Of a stretch of DNA of 39,783 nucleotides, positions 10,618 through 34,153 are shown piece by piece; the stretch's first letter is position 1, and every line of letters starts with the position of its first letter. The translations under genes were made by a program, and so were the position numbers. Origin of the DNA: a virus; the IMG/VR virus record IMGVR_UViG_3300030107_005730, positions 1 through 39,783 of that record; one strand, written 5' to 3'. The notes under the pieces were generated by a model. The model made no database searches. It was not told the DNA's origin and saw only the letters and a list, made by a program, of their open reading frames with translations.

Positions 10618-12360
10618 ATGGGTTACGGACAAGTAATAAGTAAAAATTTTAGTGCTGGTGGAACAATGGGTGGCGACCTAACGCTAGAAGGTGATTTAGT
10701 AGTACAAGGTGACGGATCAGGAAATTACGACGAGATAGTTAATGGTAATTTAGCTATATCTTCTACAAATAAGTTAGTATTAGGTGGAGATGGAAGTGAT
10801 AGTTACATACAAGAATCGGCAGCTGACGCATTAGATTTTTATGCTGGCGGTGTTCAAATGCTACAACTTTTAGAGGGTGCATCTGATTATGTATGGGTTC
10901 CACTTGATGCTACGAAATTTGCGATAGGCGCAGGTAAAGACTTGCAAATATATCACGATGGGTCACACAATTATATAGATGCTGTGACTGGCGACCAATC
11001 TATTATATTTAAAGGAACCGATAGTAGCAGTGACATTACTGCTTTAACTTTAGATATGGCGAATGCAGGGAACGCTACATTTAATGCCGATATAATTGTT
11101 GGTGCTTTATTTAAAATGCCTGATGTTACTAATAATAAAATTTTAGTATCAGATGGAACAAGCTATCAAGAAGTTGCTTTATCTGGTGATGCTACAATAG
11201 CAAATACAGGTGCAATTACTCTAGCCTCTACAAATACCAATCTTACTACATTAGCAAACGTTACAACCGTTGGAGCTCTTAATGCTGGTTCTATTACATC
11301 AGGGTTTACATCAATAGATGTAGGTAGTGGCGCTATAACAACCACAGGCACAGTAACTGGTGGTCAAATATCGGTAGATGATATTACTATAAATGGTTCT
11401 ACTATTTCTGATAGTGGCGATTTTACCCTTGATATTGGAGGCGATATAACAATAGATGCTGGAGGCGGACAAGTCAATTTTAATGATGATACTGCAACAC
11501 ATTTCTTATTAGATTGCGATAATACAAAGTTTGTAATTTATGATGACCAAGATACTGGTGATTTATTTTCAATTACAGTAGCACAACATGGAGCAACAAC
11601 AATTGCTACAGTTGATGATGATGCTACAGCTGGTAATCTTACACTAGATATTGATGGTAATATTACTATAGATGCAGATGGAGGTACTATTACATTTGCT
11701 GATGCAGGTTCTAGTTTAGGAACTATTACAAGCTCAGGGTATTCTGGTACAGCAGCAGTAGCTACAACGGTAACAATTGCTGATGAATCTAGTGATACTT
11801 CTTGTAATGTTTTATTCACAGCAAGTGCAAGTGGCGACTTAGCTGTTAAAAGCGGAACTAATTTAACATTTAATTCAAGTAGTGGTGTGTTAACTGCTAC
11901 TGGATTCGCTGGAGATATAACAGGTGATGTTACAGGTAATTGCAGTGGAACAGCAGCTACGGTAACAACAGCAGCTCAAAGCAATATTACATCTCTTGGA
12001 ACATTAACAACTTTAACAGTAGATAATGTTATTGTTAACGGAACTACTATTGGTCATACTTCCGATACAGATTTAATGACACTTGCAAGTGGTGGATTAA
12101 CATTAGCTGGCACAATTACAGTTGGAGTTGACGACACTGGGCACGATGTTAAATTTTTTGGCGCAACATCTGGCAAATATATGCAATGGGATGAAAGCGC
12201 AGATAAATTAATAGTAGCAGGTACAATACAAACAAATGATCTTGAATTACAAAATGACAGAGGTCATTATCTAATAGTAGAAGAAGAAGAATACTTATCT
12301 ATTAGAAATGAAAAGACAGGTAAGCTTTATAAATTTGTACTAGAGGAAATTGATGAGTGA
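10618..12360 (+). CDS. Tail fibre or appendage protein with repeated beta modules
   Basis: The ATG at 10618 follows AAGGAGAATT and is preferred over the in-frame TTG at 10591, which lies in the previous gene. The 580-residue protein is Gly/Ser/Thr/Asp-rich with phage-fibre repeats such as GGDLTLEGDLVVQG, DLQIYHDGSHNYI, GDITIDAGGGQVNF and GNITIDADGGTITF. The C-terminal module VGVDDTGHDVKFFGATSG recurs in the fibre gene at 15534-17027. The final 30 residues form an acidic Y-L-I-V-E-E-E-E-Y-L-S-I-R segment. It has no S74 chaperone. The next gene overlaps its stop by eight bases. Confidence 0.75.
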   Translation: MGYGQVISKNFSAGGTMGGDLTLEGDLVVQGDGSGNYDEIVNGNLAISSTNKLVLGGDGSDSYIQESAADALDFYAGGVQMLQLLEGASDYVWVPLDATKFAIGAGKDLQIYHDGSHNYIDAVTGDQSIIFKGTDSSSDITALTLDMANAGNATFNADIIVGALFKMPDVTNNKILVSDGTSYQEVALSGDATIANTGAITLASTNTNLTTLANVTTVGALNAGSITSGFTSIDVGSGAITTTGTVTGGQISVDDITINGSTISDSGDFTLDIGGDITIDAGGGQVNFNDDTATHFLLDCDNTKFVIYDDQDTGDLFSITVAQHGATTIATVDDDATAGNLTLDIDGNITIDADGGTITFADAGSSLGTITSSGYSGTAAVATTVTIADESSDTSCNVLFTASASGDLAVKSGTNLTFNSSSGVLTATGFAGDITGDVTGNCSGTAATVTTAAQSNITSLGTLTTLTVDNVIVNGTTIGHTSDTDLMTLASGGLTLAGTITVGVDDTGHDVKFFGATSGKYMQWDESADKLIVAGTIQTNDLELQNDRGHYLIVEEEEYLSIRNEKTGKLYKFVLEEIDE

Positions 12361-13717
12361 ATCAATATTTAATGAAGGTAGCATTGATGTCGATTTTAGA
12401 ATAGAAGGTAATGGCTCTACCCATGCTTTCTTTGTTGAAGGAGAGACAGATAGAGTTGGATTGCTTACTAGTGACCCGACACACACATTGGTTGTAAAAA
12501 CTGATTCAGGTGGAAGTACAAACGTATTAAAAATTGAAGAAAAAGATTCTACTGATACTCTTGTACAACTTTCATTTGGAGGTGATTACGATGAAGGCTC
12601 AATTCATGTTTATAATGGTGGAACATCTAAAATAAATTTAAGAGGAAACGGTTCATCTTATATTAACGGAGGTTCGTTGGGAATTGGTACGGATAGCCCA
12701 GACCAAACTTTGCATGTGCATAAGGGTTCAGCGGGAAGCATAGCAAGTTCAAGTGATTCAGTTTTAACTCTTGAAAATAGTGGAACTGCTATATTACAAT
12801 TTTTAACACCAAATAGCAATAGTAATCAAATTAGATTTGGAGACCCTCAAGATAATGGTGCAGGTTATATAGATTATAATCATAATACTAGTGTTTTATC
12901 AATTGGTGTAAATGGGCCTGAAAAAATGCGTATTGATAGCTCTGGCAATATTGGTATTGGTACGTCATCAATAAACTCTAATGCTAAAGTGCATATTAGA
13001 GATGGAGATAGTGGGCAAACATCTTCAAGCAACAATACTCAGTTAACTGTAGAAGATAGTGGTACAGCAGGTATTCAAATATTGACAGGCTCAACAAATG
13101 TTGGTGGTTTTTGGATTGGAGATTCGAATGGTTCAGAAACAGGTGGAAAACTTTATTATAGCAATAATGATGATAGTTGGCAATTTTATAATGGAGGAAG
13201 CACAAACTCTGTATCTATTAATTCTGATGGTGAATTTATAATAAGAGCAAATAGAAATGGACTTGCTTTAAATGTAGTAAGTGACCATAGTTCTACACCT
13301 TATGGTATGAAAATTGATTTTGATAGTGCTACACCTAATAATACAACGCAATATTTTATAACTTGTCAAGATTCTACAAATGATAAATTTATTGTTCTTT
13401 CTAATGGAAATGTCCAAAGTAGGACAGATTCTTATGGTGGAGTTTCTGATGAAAGACTAAAAGACAATATTGTAGATGCTACTTCAAAATTAGATGATTT
13501 AAATAAAGTTAGAATTGTTAATTATAATTTTAAAGATGAACCTAATCAAAAACAACTTGGTGTTATTGCTCAAGAACTGCAAAAAATATTTCCTAAAATG
13601 GTTTATGATTATGGAGAAGATAAACATTTAAGTGTAAAGTATTCAATTTTTGTACCAATGTTAATTAAAGGAATACAAGAATTATCAGCAAAAGTAACAG
13701 CATTGGAAGGTAACTAA
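12353..13717 (+). CDS. Tail fibre protein with C-terminal S74 self-cleaving chaperone
   Basis: This is one of two tandem fibre genes sharing an N-terminal F-N-E-G-S-I-D-x-D-F-R-I-E module. The start is ATG 12353 (MSESIFNEG). A trimeric-fibre-like body is followed by a Peptidase_S74 intramolecular chaperone from about residue 360. The motif SDERLKDNI supplies Ser365 and Lys370 of the Ser/Lys dyad, followed by VIAQELQKIFP and a last helix GIQELSAKVTALEGN. The domain helps trimerise the fibre and then cuts itself off. The body carries repeats of the form LGIGTDSPDQTLHV. Confidence 0.85.
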   Translation: MSESIFNEGSIDVDFRIEGNGSTHAFFVEGETDRVGLLTSDPTHTLVVKTDSGGSTNVLKIEEKDSTDTLVQLSFGGDYDEGSIHVYNGGTSKINLRGNGSSYINGGSLGIGTDSPDQTLHVHKGSAGSIASSSDSVLTLENSGTAILQFLTPNSNSNQIRFGDPQDNGAGYIDYNHNTSVLSIGVNGPEKMRIDSSGNIGIGTSSINSNAKVHIRDGDSGQTSSSNNTQLTVEDSGTAGIQILTGSTNVGGFWIGDSNGSETGGKLYYSNNDDSWQFYNGGSTNSVSINSDGEFIIRANRNGLALNVVSDHSSTPYGMKIDFDSATPNNTTQYFITCQDSTNDKFIVLSNGNVQSRTDSYGGVSDERLKDNIVDATSKLDDLNKVRIVNYNFKDEPNQKQLGVIAQELQKIFPKMVYDYGEDKHLSVKYSIFVPMLIKGIQELSAKVTALEGN

Positions 13718-15246
13718 TGGCAGAAACAGTATTTAATGAAGGAAGTATAGACGGAACAGATTTTCGTATAGAATCTGACACTAATGTGAATATGTTTTTT
13801 GTTGATGGTGCTGATAATAGGGTTGGTATAGGAACCTCAAGCCCAGCAGCGGCTTTAACCATTAAAGGCGGAAGTAGTGAATATGTAAATATTGGTACAG
13901 CTACCGAAAGTGTAAGTGGTAGAAAATCATTAAATATAATGTACGACACTTCAGCTAATATGTCTAAACTTCAATCGCACCATCAAGGTTCTGCATATAC
14001 ACCAATCGCTTTACAGCCAAATGCAGGTTTAGTTGTTGTAGGCAGCACAGTTGATGAAACAAGGGTAGGTCAGAACTTAGCATTAACAGCGCATGGTGGC
14101 ACAAATAGGGGAGGTATGGCAATAAACTGTTTCCTTGCTTCTAATAATGGGCCTCTTTTTGATTTTAATAAAAGCAGAAACAGTACAGCAGGTTCTCATA
14201 CTGTCGTTCAAGACGATGATGCGTTAGGTACTTTTATTTGGCGAGGAGATGACGGTGATGAATTTTTAGATGCCGCTGCAATAGAAGCTAATGTTGATGG
14301 TACACCTGGAAATGGTGATATGCCAGGAAGATTAGTTTTTTATACATCAGCAGATGGTGGGAGTAGTTTAACTGAAAGAATGAGAATTACATCAACTGGA
14401 TATATTGTTGCTAATGGTGCAACTGATACTGGCAGAGTTACTCGTGGAAATGTCTTTAGGTCAAGTGCGAATGGTAAAGCTGCTATAACATTATTATCAC
14501 CATCTAATGTTACCGCAGGTGTTGGAAATGAAATTGTAGCTTTAAACTTTGCAGCTAACAACTATTGGGCTGATGCTAAAGATTCTGTTTATGCACAAAT
14601 AAGATGTGAGGGTGGTCATGGTAGTTATGGCGATAGAGGTCAATTAGTTCTTGCTACTGGATATGATGGTGATACTGTAAACGATAGAATGCTTATTGCA
14701 GAAGATGGAAATGTTGGTATAGGTGAAGATGACCCCGCAAATCTTTTAAATATTAAAAGAGCAGATGATAGCTATCCTTTGTTACACGTTAATCAAAATG
14801 GCAATTCAGGTGGAATATTACTAAATATGCACGATGTAACTACAGCAAGGTCTATTGAATGCATGAATAGCTCAGAAACAACACAATGGTACATTAGAAT
14901 GAGTGGAGATTATTCACTTGGTTCTTCTGTTTCAGATAAAGATTTGAAAAAAGATATAAATGATATACCTAACGGTTCTTTAGAGTTGGTTAATAAGTTA
15001 AATCCAAAAACTTTTAAATGGAAAGAATCCGAAAACAGAGGAGATACTACTAAAACAGGATTTATAGCCCAAGATATTGCAGGTGCATTTGGTTTAAATG
15101 AAGGTATGGCAACAGGTACAGATGGAGAGAAAGATATGGGGATTGATACAACGGGTATAGTTGCTCATTTAACAAAAGCAGTACAAGAACTATCAGCAGA
15201 AGTAGAAGATTTAAAAAAGAAAAATGTAATGAGATTTGGTAATTAA
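13717..15246 (+). CDS. Second tail fibre protein with C-terminal S74 self-cleaving chaperone
   Basis: The start ATG overlaps the previous stop (TAATG). The first 50 residues match the preceding fibre in layout: VFNEGSIDGTDFRIE, a FFVDG element and VGIGTSSPAAALTIKG. The middle is different, which suggests a shared attachment module with separate receptor-binding bodies. The C-terminal S74 domain has SDKDLKKDI with Ser406 and Lys411 as the presumed dyad, then GFIAQDIAGAFG and the closing helix AVQELSAEVEDLKKK. The 509-residue product is expected to form a trimer and to release its chaperone. Confidence 0.85.
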   Translation: MAETVFNEGSIDGTDFRIESDTNVNMFFVDGADNRVGIGTSSPAAALTIKGGSSEYVNIGTATESVSGRKSLNIMYDTSANMSKLQSHHQGSAYTPIALQPNAGLVVVGSTVDETRVGQNLALTAHGGTNRGGMAINCFLASNNGPLFDFNKSRNSTAGSHTVVQDDDALGTFIWRGDDGDEFLDAAAIEANVDGTPGNGDMPGRLVFYTSADGGSSLTERMRITSTGYIVANGATDTGRVTRGNVFRSSANGKAAITLLSPSNVTAGVGNEIVALNFAANNYWADAKDSVYAQIRCEGGHGSYGDRGQLVLATGYDGDTVNDRMLIAEDGNVGIGEDDPANLLNIKRADDSYPLLHVNQNGNSGGILLNMHDVTTARSIECMNSSETTQWYIRMSGDYSLGSSVSDKDLKKDINDIPNGSLELVNKLNPKTFKWKESENRGDTTKTGFIAQDIAGAFGLNEGMATGTDGEKDMGIDTTGIVAHLTKAVQELSAEVEDLKKKNVMRFGN

Positions 15247-31710: not shown

Positions 31711-31826
31711 TGCCAAACAGAGGAGCAAAAGAAAGAAAAAGATTGCGTAGGAAATTAGCTATGCAGAACAAACTCCGTAAGAGAGAGTTGAAAAAAATAG
31801 AAAAGGAAAAGAGAAATGAATATTAA
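31710..31826 (+). CDS. Tiny basic protein (38 aa)
   Basis: ATG 31710 shares its first base with the previous stop (TAATG) and opens a 38-codon frame, MPNRGAKERKRLRRKLA and then a Lys/Arg-rich helix ending KRNEY. It overlaps the next gene by eleven bases. The M-P-N-R-x-A-K-x-R-K-R opening recurs in small basic phage proteins to my recollection. A DNA- or RNA-binding packaging accessory is possible. Confidence 0.6.
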   Translation: MPNRGAKERKRLRRKLAMQNKLRKRELKKIEKEKRNEY

Positions 31827-32145
31827 TGAACTTGTAAATCAAATAGTAACAAGAAGAAATCAGGCGCAAGGTACTGTTGGAGGAAGTAAATCTATAGATG
31901 ATCTTTTACAGGCAGCAGATATTGCTACGTTTTTATCGTCTTCACCAGCAGATGCAACAAGAGCAGTTGGGCCAGATAATGTTAGGCCAGAAAATATAGG
32001 AACGATGGATAAGGATACATTAACAAGGATTCTTACTTCAGATCAGGAACCAGTTATGGAGCCTCAGCAGCCTGATAATGTTGGTACAATGACACCAGAA
32101 ATGTTAGACATGATTTTAAAAGAGATGTCTACGAGACCTAGATAG
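31816..32145 (+). CDS. Last gene of the late operon, repeat-containing (109 aa)
   Basis: The gene starts inside the preceding basic peptide gene. The product has two similar motifs, P-E-N-I-G-T-M-D-K-D-T-L-T-R-I-L and P-D-N-V-G-T-M-T-P-E-M-L-D-M-I-L, each a turn followed by a short amphipathic helix. Between them is a proline-rich, acidic linker. The two helices may bind two equal surfaces, for instance neighbouring subunits. The function is unknown. A terminator lies 47 bases after the stop. Confidence 0.55.
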   Translation: MNINELVNQIVTRRNQAQGTVGGSKSIDDLLQAADIATFLSSSPADATRAVGPDNVRPENIGTMDKDTLTRILTSDQEPVMEPQQPDNVGTMTPEMLDMILKEMSTRPR

Positions 32146-32150
32146 AATAA

Positions 32151-32381
32151 TTAAAACCCTTTTTTATCTTCTCTCCGTTGTCTCTTCATAAGGAGGCGGG
32201 TTTTCTTCTTTTCCCGCCTCTTTTTTTCAGATTTCTTTTCATAGTATCTGTTTTCTTTTAGCTTTTCTATTACACCACTTTCGTTAAATACCTTTTTAAA
32301 GCGCGAAATTAGCCGTTGTACGCTTTCATTTTTCTTTTTTGATACTTGTATAGGCTTTGCTTGAAAAGTTTCTAATTTCAT
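32151..32381 (-). CDS. rpsU: Ribosomal protein bS21, phage-encoded
   Basis: The 76-residue product matches bS21 in order and spacing. N-E-S-V-Q-R-L-I-S-R-F-K-K is the counterpart of the family's helix with RRFKR. S-G-V-I-E-K-L-K-E-N-R-Y-Y-E-K follows it like the family's A-G-V-x-x-E-x-R-x-x-x-F-Y-E-K, and then comes a very basic tail with KKRREKKKTRLLMKRQRRE. bS21 sits on the small subunit near the Shine-Dalgarno/anti-Shine-Dalgarno helix and aids initiation. A phage copy could steer host ribosomes to phage mRNA. It begins with an ATGA overlap behind GAGG and is last in the leftward operon. Confidence 0.9.
   Translation of the reverse strand: MKLETFQAKPIQVSKKKNESVQRLISRFKKVFNESGVIEKLKENRYYEKKSEKKRREKKKTRLLMKRQRREDKKGF
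32193..32227 (+). terminator. Rho-independent terminator of the late operon
   Basis: A perfect 8-bp stem GAGGCGGG (32193-32200) and CCCGCCTC (32213-32220) with a 12-base T/C-rich loop is followed directly by seven T. This is a textbook terminator on the plus strand, 47 bases after the last rightward gene. It lies within the coding sequence of the convergent bS21 gene. Confidence 0.9.
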
Positions 32382-32578
32382 TTTTCCTCAAATTGTTTTC
32401 TTAATTTATTTAAATGTTTTTCGCAAGAAGTTCCTAGGCTTATAGTTTTAGTGGGAAAAGATTTTGGGTCTACCTTAATGATATCAGTAAACTCGTAAAG
32501 AGCTACGCTATTGCAATCTTTATAATCGCACAAAGGTCTTTTAACGTTCCTAATGCTTACTTTACTTGGTGTAGTCAT
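32378..32578 (-). CDS. Small cysteine/histidine protein, zinc-finger-like (66 aa)
   Basis: ATG at 32578 was chosen because AGGAGA lies seven bases upstream; a longer frame lacks such a site. Likely metal ligands are C-x4-C (PLCDYKDCNS) and C-x2-H (TSCEKHLNKL) some 32 residues apart. This resembles small phage zinc fingers with unknown targets. The stop overlaps the bS21 start (ATGA), so the two may be translated together. Confidence 0.6.
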   Translation of the reverse strand: MTTPSKVSIRNVKRPLCDYKDCNSVALYEFTDIIKVDPKSFPTKTISLGTSCEKHLNKLRKQFEEK

Positions 32579-32813
32579 TTGTATATCTCCTATTATCATA
32601 ATAATCAAGGCTAGGTTTTTTATTATTTTTTGCCCCAGATGGATATTTTGTTGGGGAGCAGTGGCAAACTTTTTCTAGCCCTTCTTTTATAGCTTTGCCT
32701 AATTTTATATTTTTTTTCATATTTTCAGTCATACTGTGAAACGGGATTAAGGGTTTTTTACAAAAACTGCAAATATCAAATAATTCAATCAATAATAATC
32801 TAAATTTTCTCAC
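32562..32813 (-). CDS. Small cysteine-rich protein (83 aa)
   Basis: A GTG start at 32813 lies in a GTGA overlap with the DnaB stop, behind GGAGG. The product has C-x2-C (DICSFCKKPLIPF) and a later C-H-C cluster (EKVCHCSPTKYPSG). These four cysteines and one histidine could bind zinc. The C-terminus is polar and Asn/Tyr-rich. It overlaps the next gene's start by 17 bases. The function is unknown. Confidence 0.6.
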   Translation of the reverse strand: MRKFRLLLIELFDICSFCKKPLIPFHSMTENMKKNIKLGKAIKEGLEKVCHCSPTKYPSGAKNNKKPSLDYYDNRRYTNDYTK

Positions 32814-34153
32814 CCAAGTTCCTCCATTTCTAATTGTTTTTTATCTTTTTCGTGCGATTTAGCTGCTTTTAAATCATCAAATAGCTTGCAACTATCACCA
32901 GAATACCCAACTTCTACCGAGCCAGTAGTCCCATATCTATTTTTAGACACTACTAGTTGTAGTTCATTCTGTGTCCAAACCCTTCCAGTAGAATCCTCTT
33001 CTCCGTATCTTGATATATACGGATAATGTGTAAATGCTACTATTTCAGCATCTTGTTCCAGATTGCCAGACTCAGCAAGATCGGAAAGCCTGGGAACCGC
33101 ATCCACCCTATATTCTATATTTCTATTTAATTGTGATACAAGTATAACGCACATATCCTCGGCTTTGGCAAGCCATTTATATTTCTTGGTTGTTTCACCT
33201 ATTTTATGTCTTAAATCTCTCCTGTCATTAGATGAGTATTCTATCAATCCTATATGGTCATCAATCACTACATCTGGCTTCACATTTTTTATTTCTTGGA
33301 AAGTATCTGATAACGTCCTTATATCATCATACATAAAAAGTTTATCTTTGTAGTTTTTGTGTATAAAATCCATCGATTCGTGTACTTTTGTTTTGCTTGA
33401 TGGTACTCCGTGCCTTAGATTTCTATATGAAATACTATCACTTTCCATAGCTATGAATTTTTTCATCATCTCGGTATTTGGCATTTCCCTATTAAACATG
33501 CAAACTTTTTTACCAGCCATAACAAGATTCCTAGCTATATTTGCAGCCACAGTTGTCTTGCCGTTTGCTGGCCGACCTGCTATTATTGTTATCTCGCCCC
33601 TAGTCATTCCAGATACGACCATATCAAATTTAGGTATACCAGTTTTTATATTGGTTTTTCTGTTAAATATTGACTGTCTAGTTTCTTCTAATACTTCGGC
33701 AATATCAAAATCTTTAGTAGGCTGAAGTTTTATAAGGTTGCCTATAAGGGTATGCGAGTCATTAAGAAGTTCGGCAACGTCATTTGTGTTGTCTTCAGCT
33801 AACATAGAAAGCTTCTTGGAGTGATCACCAAGCTCCCTTCTAAGCCAGTATCCGTGTAGCATTTTGGCATAGTATTCAGCTTTAGATGGTGTAATCTCTT
33901 CAGTCGCTATGCAAGTAATGTCATAAGCAAGAGATTTTTTTACATTGTTTTTTTGTGGAAAATTATGAACAATGCTTACTGGGTCTATTTGCTCTTTATT
34001 TTTTTCTAACCTTAGAATTGTTTCCCATATACTTTTATGGAAATCAAAATAAAAAACATCACTTTTTTCTACCCATTTTTTTGCCAAATCTAATTGAAGA
34101 GGCTTATTCATTAGAGCCCCTAACAAAGCTCTTTCTGTTGATTCACTATACAA
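32810..34153 (-). CDS. dnaB: Replicative DNA helicase, DnaB type
   Basis: The 447-residue product has the DnaB N-terminal helical domain (ERALLGALMNKP, residues 7-18) and the RecA-like helicase domain. Walker A is GRPANGKTT at residues 193-201, Walker B is VVIDDH at 295-300, and VSQLNR (339-344) and ESGNLEQDAE (361-370) are the H4 and arginine-finger-region motifs. It unwinds DNA 5' to 3' as a hexamer at the phage fork. The start is TTG 34153, overlapping the methyltransferase end by eight bases. No primase gene is visible, so the host primase or another gene must supply primers. Confidence 0.95.
   Translation of the reverse strand: MYSESTERALLGALMNKPLQLDLAKKWVEKSDVFYFDFHKSIWETILRLEKNKEQIDPVSIVHNFPQKNNVKKSLAYDITCIATEEITPSKAEYYAKMLHGYWLRRELGDHSKKLSMLAEDNTNDVAELLNDSHTLIGNLIKLQPTKDFDIAEVLEETRQSIFNRKTNIKTGIPKFDMVVSGMTRGEITIIAGRPANGKTTVAANIARNLVMAGKKVCMFNREMPNTEMMKKFIAMESDSISYRNLRHGVPSSKTKVHESMDFIHKNYKDKLFMYDDIRTLSDTFQEIKNVKPDVVIDDHIGLIEYSSNDRRDLRHKIGETTKKYKWLAKAEDMCVILVSQLNRNIEYRVDAVPRLSDLAESGNLEQDAEIVAFTHYPYISRYGEEDSTGRVWTQNELQLVVSKNRYGTTGSVEVGYSGDSCKLFDDLKAAKSHEKDKKQLEMEELG

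Follow-up and report, generated by a model that had tools for sequence, protein, structure and literature searches.

Why would a phage carry a gene for ribosomal protein bS21 as the last gene of its replication operon, and does the protein favor the phage's own messages? This locus, in IMG/VR virus record IMGVR_UViG_3300030107_005730 (46,669 bases with two scaffold gaps), raises both questions; the window that we analyzed is the whole stretch of 39,783 nucleotides at positions 1–39,783 of that record. Phage-encoded bS21 has ample precedent (Mizuno 2019; Buchholz 2021; Chen 2022), also in phage genomes of ∼48 kb (Kolga; PMC8163748). What is new here is its occurrence in a clade of uncultured phages, with the apparent terminator embedded in the gene the less expected part.

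The locus encodes a genuine bS21

The bS21 ORF occupies exactly 32151–32381 on the minus strand and is a complete ATG-to-stop frame of 76 aa. In profile searches, the window protein matches both Pfam PF01165 (Ribosomal_S21; 38.8 bits, E = 7.5e-10, curated cut-off 27) and NCBIfam TIGR00030 (30S S21; 36.3 bits, E = 3.6e-9, curated cut-off 28.95); PHROG 21469, ‘ribosomal protein S21’, also matches (E = 1.3e-7), and all 38 of the PDB sequences returned by phmmer are bS21 chains or homologues from bacteria, chloroplasts, and mitochondria. The family assignment made in the original prediction is borne out by these matches; its claim of a match along the whole length goes slightly too far. The family core spans residues 13–62; the first 12 residues and everything beyond approximately residue 62 are lineage-specific. 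Within the core, the motif Y-x-K-x-S-x3-R is invariant in all of the phage bS21s that were aligned.

The AlphaFold model, built from 22 phage sequences, predicts the helices (residues 21–45 and 50–75; mean pLDDT 83.7, pTM 0.50) with basic tail that characterize the bS21 fold. Foldseek identifies six PDB matches to this model, all in ribosome entries and all bS21-sized chains (24–30% identity; probability 0.90–0.98, E = 0.065–0.36); E-values greater than 0.05 are expected because the bS21 chain is so short. The window protein resembles cellular bS21 (rpsU; PF01165, TIGR00030) in family core, predicted fold, and motif but differs in having an N-terminal extension of ∼10 residues and a tail of its own and in grouping with viral sequences. 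That 32151–32381 (minus strand) encodes a genuine bS21 is confirmed.

Genomic context of the bS21 gene

The plus strand of the window encodes a terminase, a portal, and a major head protein, which places the bS21 gene in a phage genome and not on a host contig; the minus strand encodes a DnaB helicase, a DNA methylase, and a PD-(D/E)XK nuclease. No tRNA genes were found. The features at the locus are as follows:

31816..32145 (+): gene that ends the rightward structural operon; converges on bS21, conserved in the clade
32151..32381 (−): gene for ribosomal protein S21 (bS21), 76 aa; residues 13–62 form the family core
32191..32227 (+): terminator-like hairpin and T run, stem of 9–11 bp and 12-nt loop, within the bS21 frame on the opposite strand
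32378..32608 (−): small cysteine-containing ORF (76 aa) preceding bS21, with which it overlaps by ATGA
32562..32813 (−): 83-aa ORF between dnaB and bS21, no family match
32810..34153 (−): DnaB-type replicative helicase (PF03796, E = 1.5e-49); operon partner of bS21 across the clade

As originally described, bS21 is the last leftward gene: it ends its operon facing the rightward gene at 31816–32145 across 5 bp. This convergent arrangement recurs in the relatives, in which we found 46 reading frames matching 31816–32145, in every case on the strand opposite bS21. Of the two small ORFs, that at 32378–32608 has no family match and a relative only in L002/L117, and no counterpart of that at 32562–32813 was found in the relatives.

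The position of bS21 differs from those in the known systems. In the Bacteroidetes jumbo phages (Chen et al. 2022, PMC9723584), bS21 is also on the strand opposite the structural genes but is located among them and read as late, whereas that in the window ends the replication operon; its place in the dnaB operon points to early or middle action, unlike the late one put forward for the Bacteroidetes phages. The pelagiphages HTVC008M, Kolga EXVC016S, and Aegir EXVC013S (the latter two siphoviruses) likewise are aquatic phages with bS21, and Kolga is of similar size (48.7 kb); however, their bS21s are placed apart from the window clade in the bS21 tree. In HTVC008M, bS21 is located ∼2 kb before the sliding-clamp genes; in Kolga, it follows an RNA polymerase gene instead of dnaB and, unlike that in the window, has no long N-terminal extension.

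Several ORFs elsewhere were noted from reading their translations. Two tail proteins at 12350–15246 (plus strand) have intramolecular-chaperone-like ends (DERLKDNI and DKDLKKDI). The minus-strand ORFs L007:12762–13493 and L007:14945–16828 (record 39761–40492 and 41944–43827) have a common cysteine-rich region and share a CGLHVH.DA motif reminiscent of amidoligases; between them, at record 40794–41924, is a class-II glutamine amidotransferase-like ORF (MCGLFGF start).

Distribution and descent in the phage clade

A scan with two patterns located 158 viral places related to the window bS21, and the literature describes bS21 as the commonest phage-encoded ribosomal protein (PMC9723584, PMC9976891); the earlier statement that phage bS21 is uncommon is too strong. 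A tblastn search of isolate phages with the window bS21 found no match; with the L095 relative as the query, isolate-phage bS21s were found. The best 80 of the 158 places were taken as loci. Separately, 80 helicase loci were compared for the presence of bS21. When the DnaB is at least ∼58% identical to that of the window, bS21 is located shortly downstream, except on contigs that end early and on four (L099, L100, L104, and L118) that contain the site but lack bS21; the gene is thus not essential to the lineage. bS21 is found just downstream of dnaB on every untruncated contig belonging to the window's subclade and in most of a second, compact subclade. No bS21 was found in the relatives examined with 50–55% identical DnaBs, using both a whole-record Pfam search and a six-frame search with a clade bS21 model on records that may be incomplete.

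On the helicase tree, this distribution requires two state changes (mean of 13 when shuffled), for which one gain and one loss of bS21 is the simplest reading. The clade contains two forms of the protein, that is, a long form that starts with MKLExFQAKPI or similar (the window, L002–L006, and L093–L096) and a compact form of 58–59 aa. The bS21 tree is poorly resolved; in it, the clade is located with other viral bS21s, apart from the sampled cellular and pelagiphage sequences. The pairwise dN/dS values between the window bS21 and its five nearest relatives are 0.15–0.27; the gene is maintained by purifying selection.

Throughout the compact subclade (L097–L119), bS21 is preceded by an ORF of ∼125 aa with an HExxH motif, located between dnaB and bS21 (e.g., L105:6334–6711, plus strand); it is zincin-like, has no Pfam match over the cut-off, and remains where bS21 has been lost. 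The idea that this putative metallopeptidase is a partner of bS21 that might clear host bS21 is not supported: it stays after the loss of bS21, and it is not adjacent to bS21 in the window.

Shine-Dalgarno usage and the anti-Shine-Dalgarno mechanism

With its bS21-positive members, its members that have lost bS21, and its bS21-less relatives, the clade offers a natural contrast for testing why phages carry bS21. We called genes by a mechanical rule (every ORF of 90 aa or more with an ATG start) and scored a 4-base Shine-Dalgarno (SD) word at −4 to −18. The window phage does use SD sites, as had been proposed: 66% of its ATG-start genes have such a word, compared with 17% at a mock position. 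The further proposal that strong SD sites accompany an exchanged S21 did not survive the comparison. The 4-base words precede 139 of 253 genes (0.55) in seven bS21-positive records, 51 of 101 in three records that have lost bS21, and 193 of 337 (0.57) in ten bS21-less relatives, with SD words at 11–12% of mock positions in these records; five-base words give 0.32, 0.32, and 0.34, respectively. The bS21-positive and bS21-less groups do not differ by Fisher's test (p = 0.62 and 0.66), a comparison limited in that the two groups may infect different hosts. In this phage group, SD use is independent of bS21, and the contrast argues against the simple idea that bS21 goes with a different SD usage.

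In Flavobacterium johnsoniae, bS21 helps to hide the anti-SD, with Tyr54 contributing (PMC9976891), and an aromatic residue is retained at this position by every Bacteroidetes phage bS21 in Chen 2022 (PMC9723584). The equivalent residue in the window bS21 is Leu63, with Phe76 the only aromatic residue after the motif (ungapped count from the motif). The window phage therefore has neither the aromatic residue nor the SD-poor messages of the Bacteroidia type; Leu63 and the SD-rich genome weigh against a mechanism of the Bacteroidia type and, to a lesser degree, against a Bacteroidia host. An anti-SD-like word in the bS21 message, CCTCCTTA, was also considered; only CCTCC is shared, and this is accounted for by the hairpin (vide infra) and the codons.

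Proposed function of the phage bS21

We consider it likely that the window encodes a functional phage bS21 that was gained once in the ancestor of the clade, is retained as the last gene of the dnaB operon, and probably replaces or supplements host bS21 on the 30S subunit. Judged from its operon position, the protein probably is made together with the replication proteins; bS21 occupies a loosely held, exchangeable position on the 30S, and its exchange there would keep or bias initiation capacity during infection, perhaps with a preference for phage messages. Homology makes incorporation into host ribosomes plausible, as does a published experiment with another phage, pelagiphage HTVC008M, whose bS21 is taken up into E. 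coli 70S ribosomes (PMC6375957). Phage bS21 also is transcribed in nature (PMC9723584). Three observations weigh against the proposed role: in the only in vitro experiment published, E. coli ribosomes with phage bS21 translate GFP at ∼5% of the wild type level (PMC6375957), four contigs in the clade are without the gene, and SD use is unchanged.

The first of these observations can also be read as an effect in its own right, that is, host shut-off: the phage bS21 would act dominantly to depress the translation of host messages, with a smaller effect on those of the phage. Tagged E. coli bS21 retained ∼75% of the GFP translation that pelagiphage bS21 reduced to ∼5% (PMC6375957), and the C-terminal tail and N-terminal extension of the window protein are unlike those of the sampled cellular bS21s; however, the authors of that work note that the decrease may reflect host mismatch, and the start-site signals of the phages do not change with the presence of bS21, so we regard shut-off as improbable. 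Less probable still, and in our estimation quite unlikely, is an extraribosomal role, in which the protein would bind RNA or regulate its own operon and its ribosomal ancestry would be incidental; bS21 does occur in other RNA complexes, for example the OLE RNP (PMC12054373), and the gene is always within the replication operon, but the ribosomal core motif has been kept, under purifying selection.

A terminator-like hairpin within the bS21 frame

On the plus strand, the 3′ third of the bS21 gene contains a hairpin, AGGAGGCGGG-TTTTCTTCTTTT-CCCGCCTCTT followed by TTTTT, that is entirely within the bS21 ORF, ∼45 nt past the last late gene, and oriented to end the convergent rightward late operon. 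The predicted folding energy of the region is −20.6 kcal/mol (z = −5.2), lower than in any of 200 shuffles, and the hairpin is the top-scoring terminator-like site on both strands of the 46.7-kb record; a general consensus terminator scanner, limited to loops of at most 8, did not pick up the full hairpin. Its score is reached by 1 of 1000 synonymous codon shuffles, which keep the bS21 protein but not regional bias. Thus, a GC-rich hairpin with a T run, as in intrinsic terminators, is present above chance at 32191–32227. It resembles intrinsic terminators between convergent operons in its location downstream of the last late gene; it differs in being wholly within the opposing coding gene.

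The hairpin is kept in seven of eight long-form genes, which are related and so do not represent seven independent cases; in L002, L004, L005, L006, L093, and L094, its score is reached in 1–9 of 1000 synonymous shuffles. L093 and L094 have a different hairpin in the same place, and L004 and L005 have a both-sided change from G-C to A-U together with a G-U pair that pairs only in the plus-strand RNA, a covariation that is weak (four distinct sequences; 28 of 500 shuffles).

From its sequence and location, the hairpin seems to be one that would act as the late-operon terminator, with part of the bS21 gene doubling as a stop signal; if true, coding and regulation would be compactly combined in one stretch of DNA. 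Because the putative terminator is in the basic-tail codons, late transcripts would end inside, and antisense to, the bS21 message. We suggest only tentatively that these codons are constrained as an opposite-strand terminator and that late transcripts ending antisense in bS21 could silence it, confining the protein to the replication phase. Conservation of the hairpin might also be taken to mean that bS21 is a decaying passenger kept mainly for the terminator in its DNA, but this reading, to which we assign a negligible probability, is largely refuted by dN/dS values well below 1 and by L003, which, like the compact subclade, keeps the bS21 protein without that hairpin.

The host

The tree that was expected to identify the host from cellular bS21s did not do so: none of the cellular sequences sampled falls with the phage clade, in an alignment of few columns and with Bacteroidota, Cyanobacteria, SAR11, and other marine phyla thin or absent in the sampling. 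Isolate relatives were not a route to the host either, the terminase and helicase being less than 30% identical to those of isolate phages among the matches listed. From the company that it keeps, the phage, which is uncultured, probably is marine.

Two MAG entries deserve mention. L168 (JABJCZ010000474.1), a 4.7-kb contig in an alphaproteobacterial MAG, encodes a second bS21 beside the MAG's own and may be viral; its bS21 is preceded by an unrelated-looking HEILH ORF. L175 (G048), from a MAG titled Saccharospirillaceae, encodes a Bacteroidota-like bS21 that groups with that of F. johnsoniae, which suggests mislabeling or contamination.
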